Below, piece by piece: positions 22,537 to 29,291 of a DNA stretch of 64,000 nt. The notes beneath the pieces were generated by a model. It was not told where the DNA came from. It ran no database searches and worked only from the letters and a program-made list of their open reading frames with translations. Source of the stretch: Bdellovibrio sp. ZAP7. Its GTDB lineage: Bacteria > Bdellovibrionota > FAC87 > UBA2466. How positions within the stretch are numbered: the first letter of the stretch is position 1; every line of letters starts with the position of its first letter. Position numbers and translations under genes: made by a program. The stretch is from assembly GCA_945878405.1 (NCBI GenBank), contig CAMCTJ010000004.1, forward strand, positions 1 through 64,000, read 5' to 3'.

Positions 22537-24309
22537 ATGCCACAGCTCTCGCTGACTGTCAGACTTCTTTTATCCCTGCTATTGCTCTGGGTTCCTCTCC
22601 AGAGCTTCGATCAATGGCTCTATGATCATTTGTTTCGTTTACGTCCCAAAGGCGCTGCAGAATCTCAGTACGTTTTACTTCGGGTATCTGATGGAAAGCT
22701 CAATCAATTAGGAGTAACGGACGAGTCTGAATTAAAACAAGCTTCTCTTCCCCCAGAAAGCGGAAACTATTCTCTTTGGCACCAACGTTTCTATGGGCGG
22801 CTCATTAAGAAACTAAATATCTCGAGCGCTCGCCTGATAGTTTTTACCGGTTTTTTTGATTGGGTTGCACCTCATGCCTCGCCCCCCGATTCCAAAACCC
22901 CCCTTATTTTTTCTTCTATGATTGATGATGAGGGGAAACTCGTCCCACCCCCGCAAAGACTCAGTCCTACGGCTAATTATGGTTTTAATAATCTCTTCGT
23001 AGATCCTGATAATGTCTTTAGAAAAACCCCTTTGATTTATTCCTCGGGAAAATCACTCGCTCTTCAGGTGCATGAGGTCATTGCAAAAGCTAAACCCATG
23101 GGAGATTTGATTAAACCGATTCACGTTTTCTTTCAGGGCCCTTCGGGATCTTTCACGAACTATGATGCTTGGGACATCCTCGAAGGAAATACGAATCCAG
23201 ACGTTTTCAAAGACAAGATAGTTCTCATTGGACGAGAAGGTAGCCCCTCTCACGATCTCGAAACTCCTATGGGGAGGATGTCGCGACTTGAAATCCAAGC
23301 CAATATCATCGACACCTTTCTTTCCAATAAAGAAATAAGCTTTCTCCCCTCCCCGCTGAACCGGCTCGTTGCCTTTGTGTGTATCGTGCTTTCAGTGTTA
23401 ACTATTCTTTTTTTTCCGCTCTCGGTTGCCTGGGGGTTACTCCTCACTTTGGCACTCGCCCTGACTGGAGCGGCTTTTGTGTCTCTCATTTGGTTCAAGG
23501 TTTGGATCAGCTTAGCAAGTCCTCTCTTTTGCATTTTAGGAACTCACCTCATTCTTGTGGGTTTTAAAATTGGGCGCCAAGAGGAAAAACAATGGAGGAT
23601 TCAGGAGGAATCTAAATATCTTCGAGAAATGGATCAGTTCAAGAACAACTTTGTCTCTTTGTTCAGTCATGATCTCAAGACCCCCATCGCAAAGATCAAA
23701 GCAATCGTCGACCGTCTCAGGCAAGAAAATCCGGACTTGAAGTCGGGTCTCGAAGAAGGGCTGGTAGGAATCGAAAAAGCTAATGGGGAGTTAGCTCGTT
23801 TGATTTCCGATATTTTACGTGTGACAAAAATGGAGTCCATGCCGATTGAACCTGCAAAAGAAGTAGTAGATATCAACCGACTTGTGGAAAATGCCATTCA
23901 AAGACTCAAGTTTCTTTTTGATGAGAAAAACATTTCAATCGTACAAAACTTGGAGCCTCTGTTTTCAATGGAAGGGGATCCTCAGTTACTTCTTGAAGTA
24001 ATCACCAATCTTTTAGAAAACGCTGTTAAGTATAGTCCGCCCCACTCCAAAGTAATTGTCCAGACACAAGAAACTGACGGCAAAGTAAGCGTTCATGTTT
24101 TTGATGAAGGCCCGGGAATACCGGAAGAGGAACTTCCCCGCGTGACGAGTAAGTTTTATAGAGGAAAAGCAGCGAGTGAGACGACTCGAGGCTCAGGCCT
24201 CGGTTTATATTTGGCAAAGTACTTTGTTGAGCTTCACGGTGGCAACCTGGATATTCAGAGTAAATTGGGAGTTGGCACCCATATCAGTTTCACTTTGCCA
24301 ATCCGCTAA
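22537..24309 (+). CDS. CHASE2-domain sensor histidine kinase
   Basis: 590 residues. Membrane segment 7-21, periplasmic CHASE2 domain about 25-270 (DQWLYDHLFRLRP..., IVLIGREGSPSHD, ANIIDTFL), then three membrane helices 273-345. Cytoplasmic HisKA domain with phospho-acceptor H378 (LFSHDLKTPIAKIK) and HATPase domain with N-box NLLENAVKYS, then DEGPGIP and GSGLGLYLAKY. Senses an extracytoplasmic signal and phosphorylates a regulator, most likely the sigma-54 activator encoded next, 115 bases downstream. Signal unknown. Confidence 0.93.
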   Translation: MPQLSLTVRLLLSLLLLWVPLQSFDQWLYDHLFRLRPKGAAESQYVLLRVSDGKLNQLGVTDESELKQASLPPESGNYSLWHQRFYGRLIKKLNISSARLIVFTGFFDWVAPHASPPDSKTPLIFSSMIDDEGKLVPPPQRLSPTANYGFNNLFVDPDNVFRKTPLIYSSGKSLALQVHEVIAKAKPMGDLIKPIHVFFQGPSGSFTNYDAWDILEGNTNPDVFKDKIVLIGREGSPSHDLETPMGRMSRLEIQANIIDTFLSNKEISFLPSPLNRLVAFVCIVLSVLTILFFPLSVAWGLLLTLALALTGAAFVSLIWFKVWISLASPLFCILGTHLILVGFKIGRQEEKQWRIQEESKYLREMDQFKNNFVSLFSHDLKTPIAKIKAIVDRLRQENPDLKSGLEEGLVGIEKANGELARLISDILRVTKMESMPIEPAKEVVDINRLVENAIQRLKFLFDEKNISIVQNLEPLFSMEGDPQLLLEVITNLLENAVKYSPPHSKVIVQTQETDGKVSVHVFDEGPGIPEEELPRVTSKFYRGKAASETTRGSGLGLYLAKYFVELHGGNLDIQSKLGVGTHISFTLPIR

Positions 24310-24424
24310 GCATCTGTTTTTATTTTATTTTCTGACCAGAAGACCACCTTGCCACTTGTGATTACACCCAACATCTGATAACACCGTCTCAGTTTTATCC
24401 CGATTTTCCAAGAGGCAAAAGACC

Positions 24425-25834
24425 ATGTATTCCATTCTGGTCGTCGATGACGAGCATGATTTACGAAAGCACATCGTCACTCTTCTTTCTTCTCGAGGAT
24501 ATCAAGTAGATGAAGCAGCAGACGGAATGGAAGCAGCTGAAAAATTAGCTCACAAACAATATCCTTTGGTCCTCTGCGATGTCCGCATGCCTCGAATGAA
24601 TGGCATCGAACTTCTTCGACATGTTCAAATCAAGGAATACTCCTCCACGGTTGCACTAATCACTGCGCATGGGAATATCCGCGAAGCAATTGATGCTATT
24701 CGCGAAGGGGCTTTTGATTACATCGAAAAACCAATCAATGAGTCCATTCTCGTTGAACTCGTCCAAAAAGCTGAACGTGCTTATCACATGATTTTCAACA
24801 TGGCTTATTCGGCTCCCGTCTTAAATCCGGGCAGTCCCACGGAAGCCATTGGAAAAAGCCGAAGCATGAAATCTATTTTTCAAATGGTGGAACGCCTTGG
24901 AAGAGTCGACACTTCGGTTTTGATTCGCGGGGAGAACGGAACAGGCAAGGAGCTAGTCGCAAGGGCTATCCATTTCAATGGTTCCAGAAAAAATGGACCC
25001 TTTGTTGCAGTTAATTGCGCCGCTATCACTGACACTTTGATTGAAAGTGAACTTTTTGGTCATGAAAAAGGGGCTTTCACGGGCGCAGACCAAAGAAGAA
25101 TTGGGAAGTTCCAATTTGCCTCCGGCGGTACTCTTTTCCTTGATGAAATTGGAGAAACTACTGCCGCTCTTCAAGTCAAATTACTTCGCGTTCTTCAAGA
25201 CCAGTGCTTCACCCCCTTGGGATCAAACCGAGAAGTCAAAACGGATGTTCGGGTGATTGCTGCAACCAACCGCGATTTGGAATCCGCTATCAAACAGGGC
25301 CGATTTAGAGAAGACTTATTTTACCGTCTTAATGTCATGCCCATTTTTCTTCCGCCACTACGAAATAGACAAGAGGATATAGCTCCACTCGTTCACCACT
25401 TTATCGACAAATTCAATCTCAGACATTCAAAGCATATCGACGCTATCAGTCCTGAAGCTTTGAGCGCTCTTGAACAATTTAATTGGCCTGGCAATATTCG
25501 CGAGCTTGAAAATGCCATCGAGCATGCATTTATTCTAGAAACCAGCAACCAGATTACTTTTTTCAGCTTGCCAGATTATTTACGAAAAGTTTCGAAGAGA
25601 AAACCAAGCATCCGCCGAATTGATTCCGCCTCTTCTTTTGAGTTTATGGATTGGGAAAGGCGCAAAGAAGACTTTGAACGCGATTTTATCATTCAAGCCC
25701 TCAAGCGCTTTCAAGGGCGCATCAATATGACTGCGGACCAATCAAACATTCCCAAGAACACACTTTTGAGAAAAATTAAGAAATATCAGATCAAGCCATC
25801 TGACTATGGAGCCAAGGAGCTCAGCTTTGAGTGA
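24425..25834 (+). CDS. Sigma-54-dependent response regulator (NtrC class)
   Basis: 469 residues. Receiver domain 1-120 with D8/D9 and phospho-acceptor D52 (CDVRMPRMNG). AAA+ domain about 140-380 with Walker A GENGTGKE, the sigma-54 contact loop GAFTGA (216-221), Walker B GGTLFLDEIGE and sensor NWPGNIRELENA. Fis-type helix-turn-helix at the C-terminus (MTADQSNIPKNTLLRKIKKY). Activates sigma-54 promoters on phosphorylation by the upstream CHASE2 kinase. Its last codons hold the ribosome site and start of kynA. The one clear sigma-54 promoter in the window is at 52.26 kb, a possible but unproven target. Confidence 0.95.
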   Translation: MYSILVVDDEHDLRKHIVTLLSSRGYQVDEAADGMEAAEKLAHKQYPLVLCDVRMPRMNGIELLRHVQIKEYSSTVALITAHGNIREAIDAIREGAFDYIEKPINESILVELVQKAERAYHMIFNMAYSAPVLNPGSPTEAIGKSRSMKSIFQMVERLGRVDTSVLIRGENGTGKELVARAIHFNGSRKNGPFVAVNCAAITDTLIESELFGHEKGAFTGADQRRIGKFQFASGGTLFLDEIGETTAALQVKLLRVLQDQCFTPLGSNREVKTDVRVIAATNRDLESAIKQGRFREDLFYRLNVMPIFLPPLRNRQEDIAPLVHHFIDKFNLRHSKHIDAISPEALSALEQFNWPGNIRELENAIEHAFILETSNQITFFSLPDYLRKVSKRKPSIRRIDSASSFEFMDWERRKEDFERDFIIQALKRFQGRINMTADQSNIPKNTLLRKIKKYQIKPSDYGAKELSFE

Positions 25835-26609
25835 ACAACAATCCCCACTAACCTACGGAAGTTATTTAAAAGTAGATGAACTTTTGTCGTTACAAGATCC
25901 GCAGTCGAATCCTGTAGCTGCGGATGAGTTACTGTTTATCATTATTCATCAGTCGTACGAACTGTGGTTCCGATTGGTAATTAGTGAACTAGATAAAGTA
26001 GTCACTTTGTTAGAACACCAGGATTTAATTCCAGCCTTTCATCTTCTTGAAAGAGTATCTTTGGTTTTCAAGTCCCTCATTCAACAGATCGATATTTTAG
26101 AAACGATGACTCCCGTAGCGTTCAATCAATTTCGAGCTAAAATCAACCCTGCAAGCGGCTTTCAAAGCTGGCAATTTAGAGAGTTAGAACTTTTGGCCGG
26201 AGGAACCCCACAAGACTATTCTCGTTTTGCCTCCCTTGAACCTGAATGGTTTCACAAATTACAGAAACGAGGCAATCAGCCTAACTTGAGATCAAGTTTT
26301 ATTAAATTGCTTCAAAAGAGAAAGCTATTGAGTGAATCCTTTACACCAGAGGCTTTTCAAAAAGCTCTCCTCTCGATTTATAACAAACCTATTCAAGATG
26401 AGCTTCAAACTCTTTGTGAGTTTTTAATTGGTTTTGATGAACAGATCCTTTTGTGGCGTTTCAGACATGTTCAAATGGTCGAACGCATGATTGGAATGAA
26501 GCATGGGACAGGAGGCTCTTTAGGAGTCCCTTACCTAGAAAGCACCCTACGGAAGAAATTTTTCCCTGAACTCTGGGAAGCTAGAACGCAGATGGGCGTT
26601 TTGAATTAA
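25827..26609 (+). CDS. kynA: Tryptophan 2,3-dioxygenase
   Basis: Heme enzyme opening the indole ring of L-tryptophan to N-formylkynurenine. About 260 residues. Signature LTYGSYLKVDELLSLQ, the heme-region HQSYELWFRL, RVSLVFKSLIQQ, FQSWQFRELE and the C-terminal HGTGGSLGVPYLES are all present. I prefer the TTG at 25827, which has AAGGAG seven bases upstream and overlaps the regulator's stop; the ATG at 25806 has no ribosome site. It is therefore coupled to the sigma-54 regulator gene. Its 3' end overlaps the convergent kynB-fusion gene by 29 bases. Confidence 0.95.
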   Translation: MSEQQSPLTYGSYLKVDELLSLQDPQSNPVAADELLFIIIHQSYELWFRLVISELDKVVTLLEHQDLIPAFHLLERVSLVFKSLIQQIDILETMTPVAFNQFRAKINPASGFQSWQFRELELLAGGTPQDYSRFASLEPEWFHKLQKRGNQPNLRSSFIKLLQKRKLLSESFTPEAFQKALLSIYNKPIQDELQTLCEFLIGFDEQILLWRFRHVQMVERMIGMKHGTGGSLGVPYLESTLRKKFFPELWEARTQMGVLN

Positions 26610-28116
26610 GAAGAAGAGCCCTCACTGGACTGGCATCTCCGCCTTCGATTTTCAGTGGAAAGGCTACAAGCTCGTAAATTCCCGGCTCCACGCGATCTAA
26701 AATCAAGCCCTCTAAAATAGCCATTCCAGTTTTTAAAGTAGCTTTGTGGCTTGCAAGTTCCTTAGATTCAAACAGATCAATAGACGGCGTATCAATTCCC
26801 ATCAAGATAACTCCCTCACCGGATAAATACTCAATGAGGCTAGCTGAAAAAGCACAAAAATCTGTATTGAACTGATTCGGATCTGGAAAAGAATTGGTTT
26901 TAAACAAAACTCTGGGGGCAACTATCTTTAGCCCTTGAATATCTTCAATCGTAATTTCAGTATGGGGTGTCTTGATGACTTCAATGATTTGACAAGCCCC
27001 CTCATATTTCCAAAGCTCTACTTGGTCGATTCCGTTTTTTCCCTTCCCAAAGTGATTGGGTGAGTCCGCATGAGCGCCTACATGAAGAGTTGTGTTAATC
27101 GAAGAAAGAGTCATATGCTTTCCTTCTTCGATATTTAAAACGACCTTTCTGGAGAACGCCTCATCGCCCGGCCAGACGGCGATTTTCGAGTTCAGAGAAG
27201 GACTGATATCGATCCATTTTTTCTTTGAGGGTTCAAAAGGCTCATACCGGTATTGAATGCTTTGCCCTTCCGGAACGGGCACGTCGCACTGAAGCCCCAG
27301 TTTTTCTAAGACCGGCTTGACCGCTAAGGCAGCTGCTGCCGGCTGATAGCCAGATGCGGTTTTAACCACGACCCCCAATCCTTGCGGGTAAGTAGAGTTG
27401 GGTAAAAGCCCAATACCCAAGAGGCCATCGGCTCCTTCTTTAGCAATAAGATATTTCTGATTTGTTTTCATGAGCCGGCTATCAATTCGCTCTGGGCCCC
27501 CGATCCAATCGGGGTGGGAAATCATGAGATCTCGAATGGTTTGCAATTGAGGATCTATCGCGCCTTGAGCCAAAACCTGAAACAAACGAGCCATTTGATC
27601 CAGACGTAAAACAGGGCTCGGAAGTTTGCACCCATCGACAACAAATTCAAAAGACTCTTCTGGCTCTCCGAGCATTCGAGAAAGTGTTCTCAATACACTC
27701 TGATGAAAGGGGTGACTCTGAGTCAGGTAGCCTTCAATGGGCCAACCTCTGTTTTGACAGGTCTGAGCGATCGCTAAATGCTTTGGAAAACAAGCATGGG
27801 CCACAGGCAGATGAAGTCGACTCACCAGCTCAGCCACTGGGGATTGAGAGGTCCACCGCTTTAATTGATCCACTTGATCTGCATGAGCTGAAATAGATCC
27901 CAAGGCAGCCACATGCCACTCCTGTAACGTTTTCAATTCCAAGTGGCCCATCGCTAAGAACTGAAAGGGCTTTAAAAGAGAACGGGCAGGATAACGACTG
28001 TTGACTTCCGATGTATGAAAAATGGTCTTTGAACCATCAAAGACCCAGATTTCTCCAGAAATAAGAACTTCCGGAAAGCCATTTCGATTCAATTGATAAA
28101 GAGGCGTCGGATTCAT
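26581..28116 (-). CDS. Fusion: asparaginase II-type amidohydrolase + kynurenine formamidase (KynB)
   Basis: 511 residues. Residues 1-295 match the L-asparaginase II (AnsA/ReAV-type, SxxK) family: S46-x-x-K49 in ARSLLKP, SGSISAHAD-like LGSISAHAD, C163 in VVDGCKLPSP, AKEGADGLLGIG and VVKTASGYQ. Residues 300-511 are a complete cyclase/KynB domain with metal motif H345-x3-H349-x-D351-x3-H355 (HVGAHADSPNHF), then GIDTPSIDLFES and the C-terminal IEGGDASPVRALL. The second domain hydrolyses N-formylkynurenine to kynurenine and formate, the product of adjacent kynA. The job of the first domain is unclear. Last gene of a guaB-guaA-LLM operon. Confidence 0.88.
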   Translation of the reverse strand: MNPTPLYQLNRNGFPEVLISGEIWVFDGSKTIFHTSEVNSRYPARSLLKPFQFLAMGHLELKTLQEWHVAALGSISAHADQVDQLKRWTSQSPVAELVSRLHLPVAHACFPKHLAIAQTCQNRGWPIEGYLTQSHPFHQSVLRTLSRMLGEPEESFEFVVDGCKLPSPVLRLDQMARLFQVLAQGAIDPQLQTIRDLMISHPDWIGGPERIDSRLMKTNQKYLIAKEGADGLLGIGLLPNSTYPQGLGVVVKTASGYQPAAAALAVKPVLEKLGLQCDVPVPEGQSIQYRYEPFEPSKKKWIDISPSLNSKIAVWPGDEAFSRKVVLNIEEGKHMTLSSINTTLHVGAHADSPNHFGKGKNGIDQVELWKYEGACQIIEVIKTPHTEITIEDIQGLKIVAPRVLFKTNSFPDPNQFNTDFCAFSASLIEYLSGEGVILMGIDTPSIDLFESKELASHKATLKTGMAILEGLILDRVEPGIYELVAFPLKIEGGDASPVRALLLNSKRPSAF

Positions 28117-29291
28117 AAGCGTGGGACTACTTCAGTAAAAAAGAGTTTCATCTGGTCCTGAATTTCTGCGTTATCCAATTGGTTAAACTCAAACCATAAC
28201 ATCAACCTGTCGTCTTTATGAAACCCTCGCAGCCCTCCTGGTTTCATCTGTTCGCAAATTTCAGCGGGATCTCCTACTAATGCTCGTTGAAGAAGAACCG
28301 TTTTATCCGGAACCTGTGTAGTCCCTCTCATCGCCTCAATGTAATTATCCAAAACATGGTCAGCTAGTTGATACGCTTTATCGCGATTTTGATTTATGAA
28401 GACCATCACCGTGCGGGGCAACCGATCGCGGCTCCAATTCCGAGATGCCTCGGCACATTTGCTTACCATGTTTTGATGAAGTTCTTCGATTTTTTCGGGG
28501 GAGGTGAATGACAAATTGAAAAGACTGAGATCCCAATATTTTAGTCCCCACTCGAGCGCCAGCGGATCATGAGAGCCTAGAACGATTTCAAGATATTTCA
28601 ACTCCTCCGTCTTAGGCATGACTTTTAACAGCTCAAATTCCCAACGTTTTTTAACCGTTACCGGTGCGTTGTATTTCCTTATCAGGTTTGGATCGCTAAT
28701 TTCCTTGGGATCAATCATCCACGTCTTTGTTTCCTGACTGCTCAACGCTCCACCACTCAGAAGTCGAAGAAAAATCTCAAGCGCCTCTAAAAAAATGTAT
28801 CGCTTCATCAAAGGCCATAGGTCTTTCTCTGTTTGATCCCTCGGCACAATCTGAAACGGTATGTTCTGAAATGGAAAACGTCCGGCCGCTACCCCGATTC
28901 GAAGCTGTCGATTCCACTTCCCTACTTCTTGATTTAAGAAACTGAGAAATCTCACCCGCTCAGCACTCGCGATGGGGCCCCCGCTCCCTCCCACAATATT
29001 GTGAATTGCAGTTCCAAACCCGACCCGCTTGGTACGATTAAAAAGAAGTTGAGCCATCTGAAACGAATCAGAGTTCAACCCCACTTCCCCTGCAAAATTT
29101 GGAATTGTGGCAACGCTCGTTTTTTTCTGGGTCTCAGAGGAAAAATGGCTTTCAGCACACCACACGGTGTCTACCCCTAGAGACTCTGCAAGGATGGCTT
29201 GATCAAAAAAGTTTGCAAACGCCTTAGAAACTCCGAGGGATCGTCCTTTAATTACTGGATCGCTAATGGAATGAAATAAATCGAAAATCAT
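28113..29291 (-). CDS. Luciferase-like (LLM) flavin-dependent oxidoreductase
   Basis: 392 residues of the bacterial-luciferase/F420 superfamily with a TIM-barrel core. N-terminal AILAESLGVDTVWCAESHFS, RVGFGTAIHNIVGG, then RLRIGVAAGRFPFQ are typical. It is longer than many because of an insertion around 165-230. Members oxidise varied substrates with FMN and O2. It begins 3 bases after guaA stops and overlaps the asparaginase-KynB gene by 4, so it is translationally linked to both. A substrate related to tryptophan or kynurenine is a guess from context. Confidence 0.82.
   Translation of the reverse strand: MIFDLFHSISDPVIKGRSLGVSKAFANFFDQAILAESLGVDTVWCAESHFSSETQKKTSVATIPNFAGEVGLNSDSFQMAQLLFNRTKRVGFGTAIHNIVGGSGGPIASAERVRFLSFLNQEVGKWNRQLRIGVAAGRFPFQNIPFQIVPRDQTEKDLWPLMKRYIFLEALEIFLRLLSGGALSSQETKTWMIDPKEISDPNLIRKYNAPVTVKKRWEFELLKVMPKTEELKYLEIVLGSHDPLALEWGLKYWDLSLFNLSFTSPEKIEELHQNMVSKCAEASRNWSRDRLPRTVMVFINQNRDKAYQLADHVLDNYIEAMRGTTQVPDKTVLLQRALVGDPAEICEQMKPGGLRGFHKDDRLMLWFEFNQLDNAEIQDQMKLFFTEVVPRL

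Follow-up and report, generated by a model that had tools for sequence, protein, structure and literature searches.

The presence, in a Bdellovibrio genome, of an asparaginase II-type domain on the same polypeptide as a kynurenine formamidase raises the question of what the two activities may have in common. The locus was analyzed within a window of 64,000 nucleotides, i.e. the whole stretch from position 1 to 64,000 of contig CAMCTJ010000004.1 of Bdellovibrio sp. ZAP7 (GCA_945878405.1). The fusion is encoded by a 511 residue uninterrupted open reading frame (26581-28116, minus strand), the two halves of which correspond to Asparaginase_II (PF06089) and to KynB. The relevant features, along with the match supporting each of them, are the following:

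25806..26609, plus strand: tryptophan 2,3-dioxygenase, TDO (PF03301, E 3e-58; TIGR03036, E 2e-65)
26584..27222, minus strand: kynurenine formamidase KynB, C-terminal half of the fusion, residues 299-511 (TIGR03035, E 2e-57)
27229..28116, minus strand: asparaginase-II-like (class 3, ReAV-type) hydrolase domain, N-terminal half of the fusion, residues 1-296 (PF06089, E 7e-44)
27628-27630, minus strand: third zinc ligand, C163 (ReAV alignment)
27778..27792, minus strand: CFPKH motif, with zinc ligands C109 and K112, plus H113, corresponding to C135, K138 and H139 of ReAV (ReAV alignment)
28113..29291, minus strand: luciferase-like flavin monooxygenase, LLM, the upstream partner (PF00296, E 3e-13)

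The fusion is present as a single copy in its own genome. Single-ORF fusions, featuring 44-60% identity to that of the window, are also present in nine other genomes or MAGs, which rules out an assembly or frameshift artefact. Carriers belong to the window genus (G001 and G002), to g5 and g6, which are its sister genera, and, within the order, to a further family (G014); a Polyangiaceae MAG has the fusion as well. A stop between the domains was looked for in relatives, where the fusion instead recurs as a single ORF. Since all fusions group as one clade in the tree (support 100/99), one fusion event suffices; the result is a new domain architecture, built from known families. In the AlphaFold2 model of the fusion (mean pLDDT 92, pTM 0.75), the top fold matches of the N-terminal half are the ReAV/ReAIV class-3 asparaginases, while the C-terminal half matches the KynB crystal structures 4cob, 4cog and 4co9 with a TM of 0.92-0.93 (on the target). 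About 22 residues, found in the other fusions directly ahead of the CFPKH motif (27793-27810), are missing in the window protein, where the frame is intact.

Both halves appear equipped for catalysis. The C-terminal one matches TIGR03035 (arylformamidase) at full length, over residues 300-502, scoring 194 bits against a curated cut-off of 223; PF04199 also matches (E 1e-15). In BaKynB, the binuclear zinc is held by H50, H54, D56, H161 and E173, and H60 is the catalytic residue (PMC4243253): the corresponding residues are all present, as H345, H349, D351, H457, E469 and H355, respectively.

For the N-terminal half, the PF06089 score is 150.5 bits, versus a curated cut-off of 25, with the best stretch at residues 104-276 and the N-terminal part also aligning. 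Both Ser-Lys tandems of ReAV (Ser48-Lys51 and Ser80-Lys263) are conserved, as S46-K49 and S74-K226, together with Arg47 (R45) and the zinc ligands Cys135, Lys138 and Cys189 (C109, K112 and C163); further equivalents are H113 (H139), Y130 (Y156), D161 (D187) and D230 (D267). R45, S46, K49, S74, H113, Y130, D161, K226 and D230 are invariant across 16 relatives. The first-pass annotation, made from the letters of the window alone, had described two complete halves and a full KynB metal motif, and the residues found agree with it on both points. It had also correctly indicated S46/K49 and C163, but the lysine it named, K252, is to be replaced by K226, the equivalent of K263 of ReAV; R45, S74, C109 and K112, absent from its list, are all present. 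The possible loss of zinc ligands relative to ReAV was looked for by alignment and is ruled out for the fusions, which keep them all.

Recognition of the aspartyl moiety by ReAV depends on Arg47, the zinc ligands and Asp187 (PMC12292245, PMC12951835). This set is conserved in the fusions, where the machinery for aspartyl recognition and for the formation of a beta-aspartyl-enzyme is, judging from the residues present, intact. Elsewhere the sequences diverge: position 249 (ReAV numbering), Cys in ReAV/ReAIV, is Asp in every operon or fused relative examined, and Asn134 is replaced in nearly all members of the clade, the exception being one Bdellovibrionales subgroup without zinc ligands. The zinc ligand Lys138 is changed to Glu in archaeal and planctomycete stand-alone forms, and all three ligands are gone in some Bdellovibrionales stand-alone forms. 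In the tree, the window half falls outside ReAV/ReAIV: its clade (support 100/99, with long-branch warnings) is distinct from theirs, and from the ordinary asparaginases of the same phylum.

The conserved ReAV catalytic and zinc residues would fit a true L-asparaginase whose chemistry is unrelated to kynurenine, the fusion to KynB serving co-regulation or the stability of an oligomer. The separation of the clade, along with the changes at positions 249 and 134, is left unexplained by such an assignment.

In the window, the stop codon of LLM overlaps the ATG of the fusion by 4 nt, while TDO is convergent with the fusion, their 3' ends overlapping by 29 nt; the TDO-fusion arrangement is conserved across the family and in G014, from the same order. 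Two genes lie upstream of TDO (22537-25834, plus strand), one for a CHASE2 sensor histidine kinase and one for an NtrC-type (sigma-54) response regulator, the latter overlapping the beginning of TDO by 29 nt. In relatives (e.g. loci L031, L033, L035, L036, L039, L040) kinase, regulator and TDO follow one another in the same order, which suggests two-component control of tryptophan breakdown. No Rfam family was found near the locus.

Stand-alone homologues of the asparaginase-like half were first met in seven genomes of the phylum, within operons, of varying completeness, coding for an SDR, LLM, an aldehyde dehydrogenase, two LigB-type proteins, the asparaginase-like protein and RidA, with the addition, in some of them, of KynB or TDO. 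An alignment of the asparaginase-like half, used to scan the contigs of GTDB, led to at least 509 confirmed relatives, of which 80 were kept for locus reading. Their hosts include Poseidoniales and other euryarchaeal MAGs, Planctomycetota, Bdellovibrionota, Myxococcota, Acidobacteriota, Latescibacterota, Vampirovibrionales and, among Pseudomonadota, Alteromonas and Pseudoalteromonas denitrificans. In the 80 loci kept of at least 509, many of the loci being truncated by contig ends, LLM is found 69 times, in 65 cases directly upstream of the asparaginase-like gene (within 150 nt). The semialdehyde dehydrogenase is found in 62 of these loci, the dioxygenase subunits in 49 and 48, RidA, often adjacent to the asparaginase-like gene, in 48, the SDR in 46, KynB in 22 and TDO in 17.

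The LigB-type pair corresponds to the beta (best PDB E 5e-113; next-best family 4e-12 or weaker) and alpha (E 3e-44) subunits of 2-aminophenol 1,6-dioxygenase. The archaeal LigB protein is a beta subunit as well (E 1e-111), and the aldehyde dehydrogenase of the operons is 2-aminomuconate 6-semialdehyde dehydrogenase (E 2e-125). The window LLM is 40% identical to the LLM of these aminophenol operons.

Some loci deserve a separate description. In Marine Group II (Poseidoniales) and other euryarchaeal MAGs (L107, L108, L112, L116 and others), LLM, the asparaginase-like protein, semialdehyde dehydrogenase, 2-aminophenol dioxygenase and RidA are encoded in one cluster. In L042 (7232-8515, minus strand) an alpha-type LigB subunit of 2-aminophenol dioxygenase is fused to a RidA domain, and is followed by KynB. 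The SDR gene, conserved near or upstream of LLM, is exemplified by L046 (2474-3148), with equivalents in 46 of the 80 loci. One cluster (L106) lies on a contig labelled as a Klebsiella pneumoniae MAG: it groups with planctomycete and uncultured sequences and is probably a mislabelled bin.

The vicinity of 2-aminophenol dioxygenase and semialdehyde dehydrogenase genes may also suggest a role for the asparaginase-like half downstream of ring cleavage, as 2-aminomuconate deaminase or as some other amidase, a reading first raised by the g6 operons. This assignment was rejected, and we regard it as most improbable: a RidA-type deaminase gene is present in the same operons (48 of the 80 loci, and KynU-type operons as well), the window genus has neither a 3-HAO nor a LigB-type dioxygenase able to produce 2-aminomuconate, and operon order pairs the asparaginase-like gene with LLM. 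RidA and the dehydrogenase cover the steps following ring cleavage. Operons with TDO, KynB and 2-aminophenol dioxygenase, and without kynureninase or 3-HAO, need enzymes leading from kynurenine to 2-aminophenol, and LLM and the asparaginase-like protein are thus left for this conversion.

Across the phylum, 192 genomes were evaluated for these genes: 22 contain LLM and 38 contain kynureninase (TIGR01814), with no overlap. All 22 LLM genomes contain TDO, as compared to 129 of the 192 overall (P 8e-5, genomes being treated as independent). Among TDO carriers, 6.3 genomes with both LLM and kynureninase are expected and none is observed (P 2.6e-4, again with genomes treated as independent; at the genus level, P 9e-5, with genera treated as independent). 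In the 32 genomes checked for it, 3-HAO was not found in any LLM genome. An asparaginase-like relative is present in all 13 LLM genomes tested, the match in G114 being weaker (E 1e-38) and not linked to LLM.

This pattern bears on the assignment of the N-terminal half as a true L-asparaginase, which leaves unexplained the strict pairing of LLM and asparaginase-like genes, the 2-aminophenol operon context and the exclusion of kynureninase; on these grounds we consider it unlikely. The scavenging asparaginase sharing regulation with tryptophan breakdown, proposed by the first-pass annotation, fails in the same way, in that it accounts neither for the LLM pairing and the 2-aminophenol genes, nor for the absence of kynureninase.

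A further fact in favour of a true L-asparaginase is the presence of an intact asparaginase half in KynU-type genomes without LLM. These are found in genera g5 and g6, where KynU and 3-HAO are present in all genomes but G007. In nine loci (L033, L034, L035, L036, L038, L067-L070) the intact fusion is found along with KMO-like, KynU, 3-HAO and ACMSD-like genes. The KMO-like and ACMSD-like genes, which adjoin KynU/3-HAO where the locus was read, are assigned by context and sequence appearance, the sole NCBIfam match of the former being the related VioC family. No LLM of this kind was found by the LLM query in g5 and g6; a single PF00296 match, missed by the query, is present in g6 (G012). The possibility of a degenerate relic in KynU-type genomes was not supported: the ratio of asparaginase to KynB half evolution is 1.09 in g6 versus 1.33 in the LLM-type genus, as read with saturated dS. 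Being intact and, within g6, not noticeably faster-evolving than the KynB half, the asparaginase half of these two genera is probably still in use.

Taken as a whole, these data indicate that the fusion is probably a bifunctional enzyme from a branch of tryptophan catabolism replacing kynureninase, where kynurenine is converted to L-aspartate and 2-aminophenol by LLM and the asparaginase-like half. Kynurenine may be described as asparagine with an aryl group replacing the amide nitrogen; once an oxygen is inserted, the aryl group, which could not leave as such, can depart as a phenolate, and Baeyer-Villiger oxidation is a known reaction in the luciferase-like superfamily. It is from genomics and such chemistry that we infer what LLM catalyses, what the asparaginase-like half hydrolyses, how the steps are ordered, and any channelling. 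TDO would convert tryptophan to N-formylkynurenine, to be deformylated to L-kynurenine by the KynB half. LLM, depending on reduced flavin, would then insert an oxygen into the bond joining the ketone carbon to the aryl ring, producing the 2-aminophenyl ester of the beta-carboxylate of L-aspartate, which may undergo an acyl shift to N4-(2-hydroxyphenyl)-L-asparagine. The asparaginase-like half would hold the aspartyl moiety via zinc and Arg45, as ReAV holds Asn; attack of Ser46/Lys49 on the side-chain carbonyl would expel 2-aminophenol, and hydrolysis of the beta-aspartyl-enzyme would release L-aspartate. In most relatives, 2-aminophenol would be cleaved by 2-aminophenol 1,6-dioxygenase and further processed by 2-aminomuconate-semialdehyde dehydrogenase, a RidA-type deaminase, a decarboxylase and a hydratase. 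KynB and the hydrolase, joined in one protein, would bracket the LLM step and could limit the loss of a reactive ester.

In the window genus, of the whole route, only TDO, the fusion and LLM are found. Neither a LigB-type (2-aminophenol) dioxygenase, nor kynureninase or 3-HAO, was found there, and no close semialdehyde dehydrogenase is present (best about 40%, versus 57-59% in g6). Since the ring-cleavage enzyme is absent, the route probably stops at 2-aminophenol in this genus, with aspartate and formate as the gain.

The first-pass annotation was right in outline in placing the asparaginase-like half in the kynurenine pathway, a placement backed in dozens of genomes by gene linkage. The kynurenine-pathway amide it suggested as substrate is better specified as the inferred product of LLM acting on kynurenine, a beta-aspartyl ester or the corresponding anilide; its proposal of channelled formyl/ammonia chemistry found no support.

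The folds nearest to the LLM model (pLDDT 92) are those of bacterial luciferases and of flavin monooxygenases, type II Baeyer-Villiger enzymes among them. Baeyer-Villiger enzymes are not singled out by these matches: those of type II rank no higher than 29-43, and 3,6-diketocamphane monooxygenase, though matched, does not stand out. A search with a relative of the window LLM found no sequence relative in PDB. LLM overlaps TDO in G072 and KynB in G093. In Pseudoalteromonas denitrificans the gene order is TDO, a flavin/ferredoxin-reductase-type oxidoreductase, LLM and the asparaginase-like gene, where the reductase-type gene beside LLM fits a two-component flavin monooxygenase.

The overlaps of LLM with TDO or KynB, and its TDO and reductase-type neighbours in P. 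denitrificans, count in favour of the proposed route, as do the immediate succession of LLM and the asparaginase-like gene in 65 of the 80 loci, which span archaea and many bacterial phyla, the 2-aminophenol genes in the operons, the constant association of LLM with TDO and never with kynureninase, and the retention of the ReAV aspartyl-recognition set while positions 249 and 134 changed. Against it count the LLM fold matches and the lack of a PDB relative, the intact asparaginase half of g5/g6 without LLM, the window genus without 2-aminophenol dioxygenase, the Lys138 to Glu change in archaea and planctomycetes, the loss of zinc ligands in some Bdellovibrionales and the SDR of many operons, which has no place in the scheme.

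The same chemistry might take place in a different order, with LLM and the asparaginase-like domain acting on N-formylkynurenine, and KynB then deformylating 2-formamidophenol. KynB belongs to the arylformamidase family, the fusion joins both hydrolases and LLM adjoins TDO in some genomes, as this order would have it; in G093, on the other hand, LLM overlaps KynB and not the asparaginase-like gene. We regard this order as quite unlikely, and retain deformylation as the step preceding LLM.

The pathway pointed to by the fusion appears to be undescribed and widespread. In the open-access literature, subscription papers lying outside the search, no link was found of kynurenine with Baeyer-Villiger cleavage to 2-aminophenol, nor any asparaginase relative tied to kynurenine breakdown; a paper on an aromatics microcompartment, dealing with 2-aminophenol meta-cleavage, mentions neither kynurenine nor asparaginase (PMC10470539). 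On balance, we favour the existence of an undescribed kynurenine route, common to Poseidoniales and many bacterial phyla, where LLM and an asparaginase-like beta-aspartyl hydrolase replace kynureninase, the hydrolase being fused to KynB in the window lineage. If so, an unrecognised branch of tryptophan breakdown would exist, with relatives of the hydrolase in at least about 500 GTDB genome stretches, including those of abundant ocean archaea, and many "asparaginase II" and "LLM flavin monooxygenase" annotations would be wrong. The route would explain kynurenine degradation in organisms with TDO and KynB but without kynureninase, and would be a natural source of 2-aminophenol. It would also be unusual in that an oxygenase converts a ketone to the ester analogue of asparagine, and thereby makes it cleavable by an asparaginase-type enzyme.

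Bacterial KynB (TIGR03035; 4cob/4cog/4co9) shares fold and binuclear zinc residues with the C-terminal half, but is usually a stand-alone protein of about 210 residues, rather than half of a 511 residue one. ReAV/ReAIV of Rhizobium etli (PF06089) are similar to the fusions in fold, Ser-Lys tandems, Arg47, Asp187 and zinc ligands; the asparaginase-like half differs in its separate clade, in the change of Cys249 to Asp and the replacement, in most members, of Asn134, in being fused to KynB or paired with LLM, and in the leaving group, which would be 2-aminophenol instead of ammonia. The KMO-KynU-3HAO route also starts from tryptophan via TDO and KynB, but LLM co-occurs neither with KynU (192 genomes) nor with 3-HAO (32 genomes), and the proposed products are aspartate and 2-aminophenol, in place of the alanine and (3-hydroxy)anthranilate of the kynureninase route. 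With the 2-aminophenol meta-cleavage (amn) pathway, finally, the operons of relatives have in common the two subunits of the dioxygenase, the semialdehyde dehydrogenase, RidA, a decarboxylase and a hydratase; the differences are the window genus, devoid of the dioxygenase, and the linkage of the operons to TDO, KynB, LLM and the asparaginase-like gene, because of which 2-aminophenol would here derive from tryptophan.
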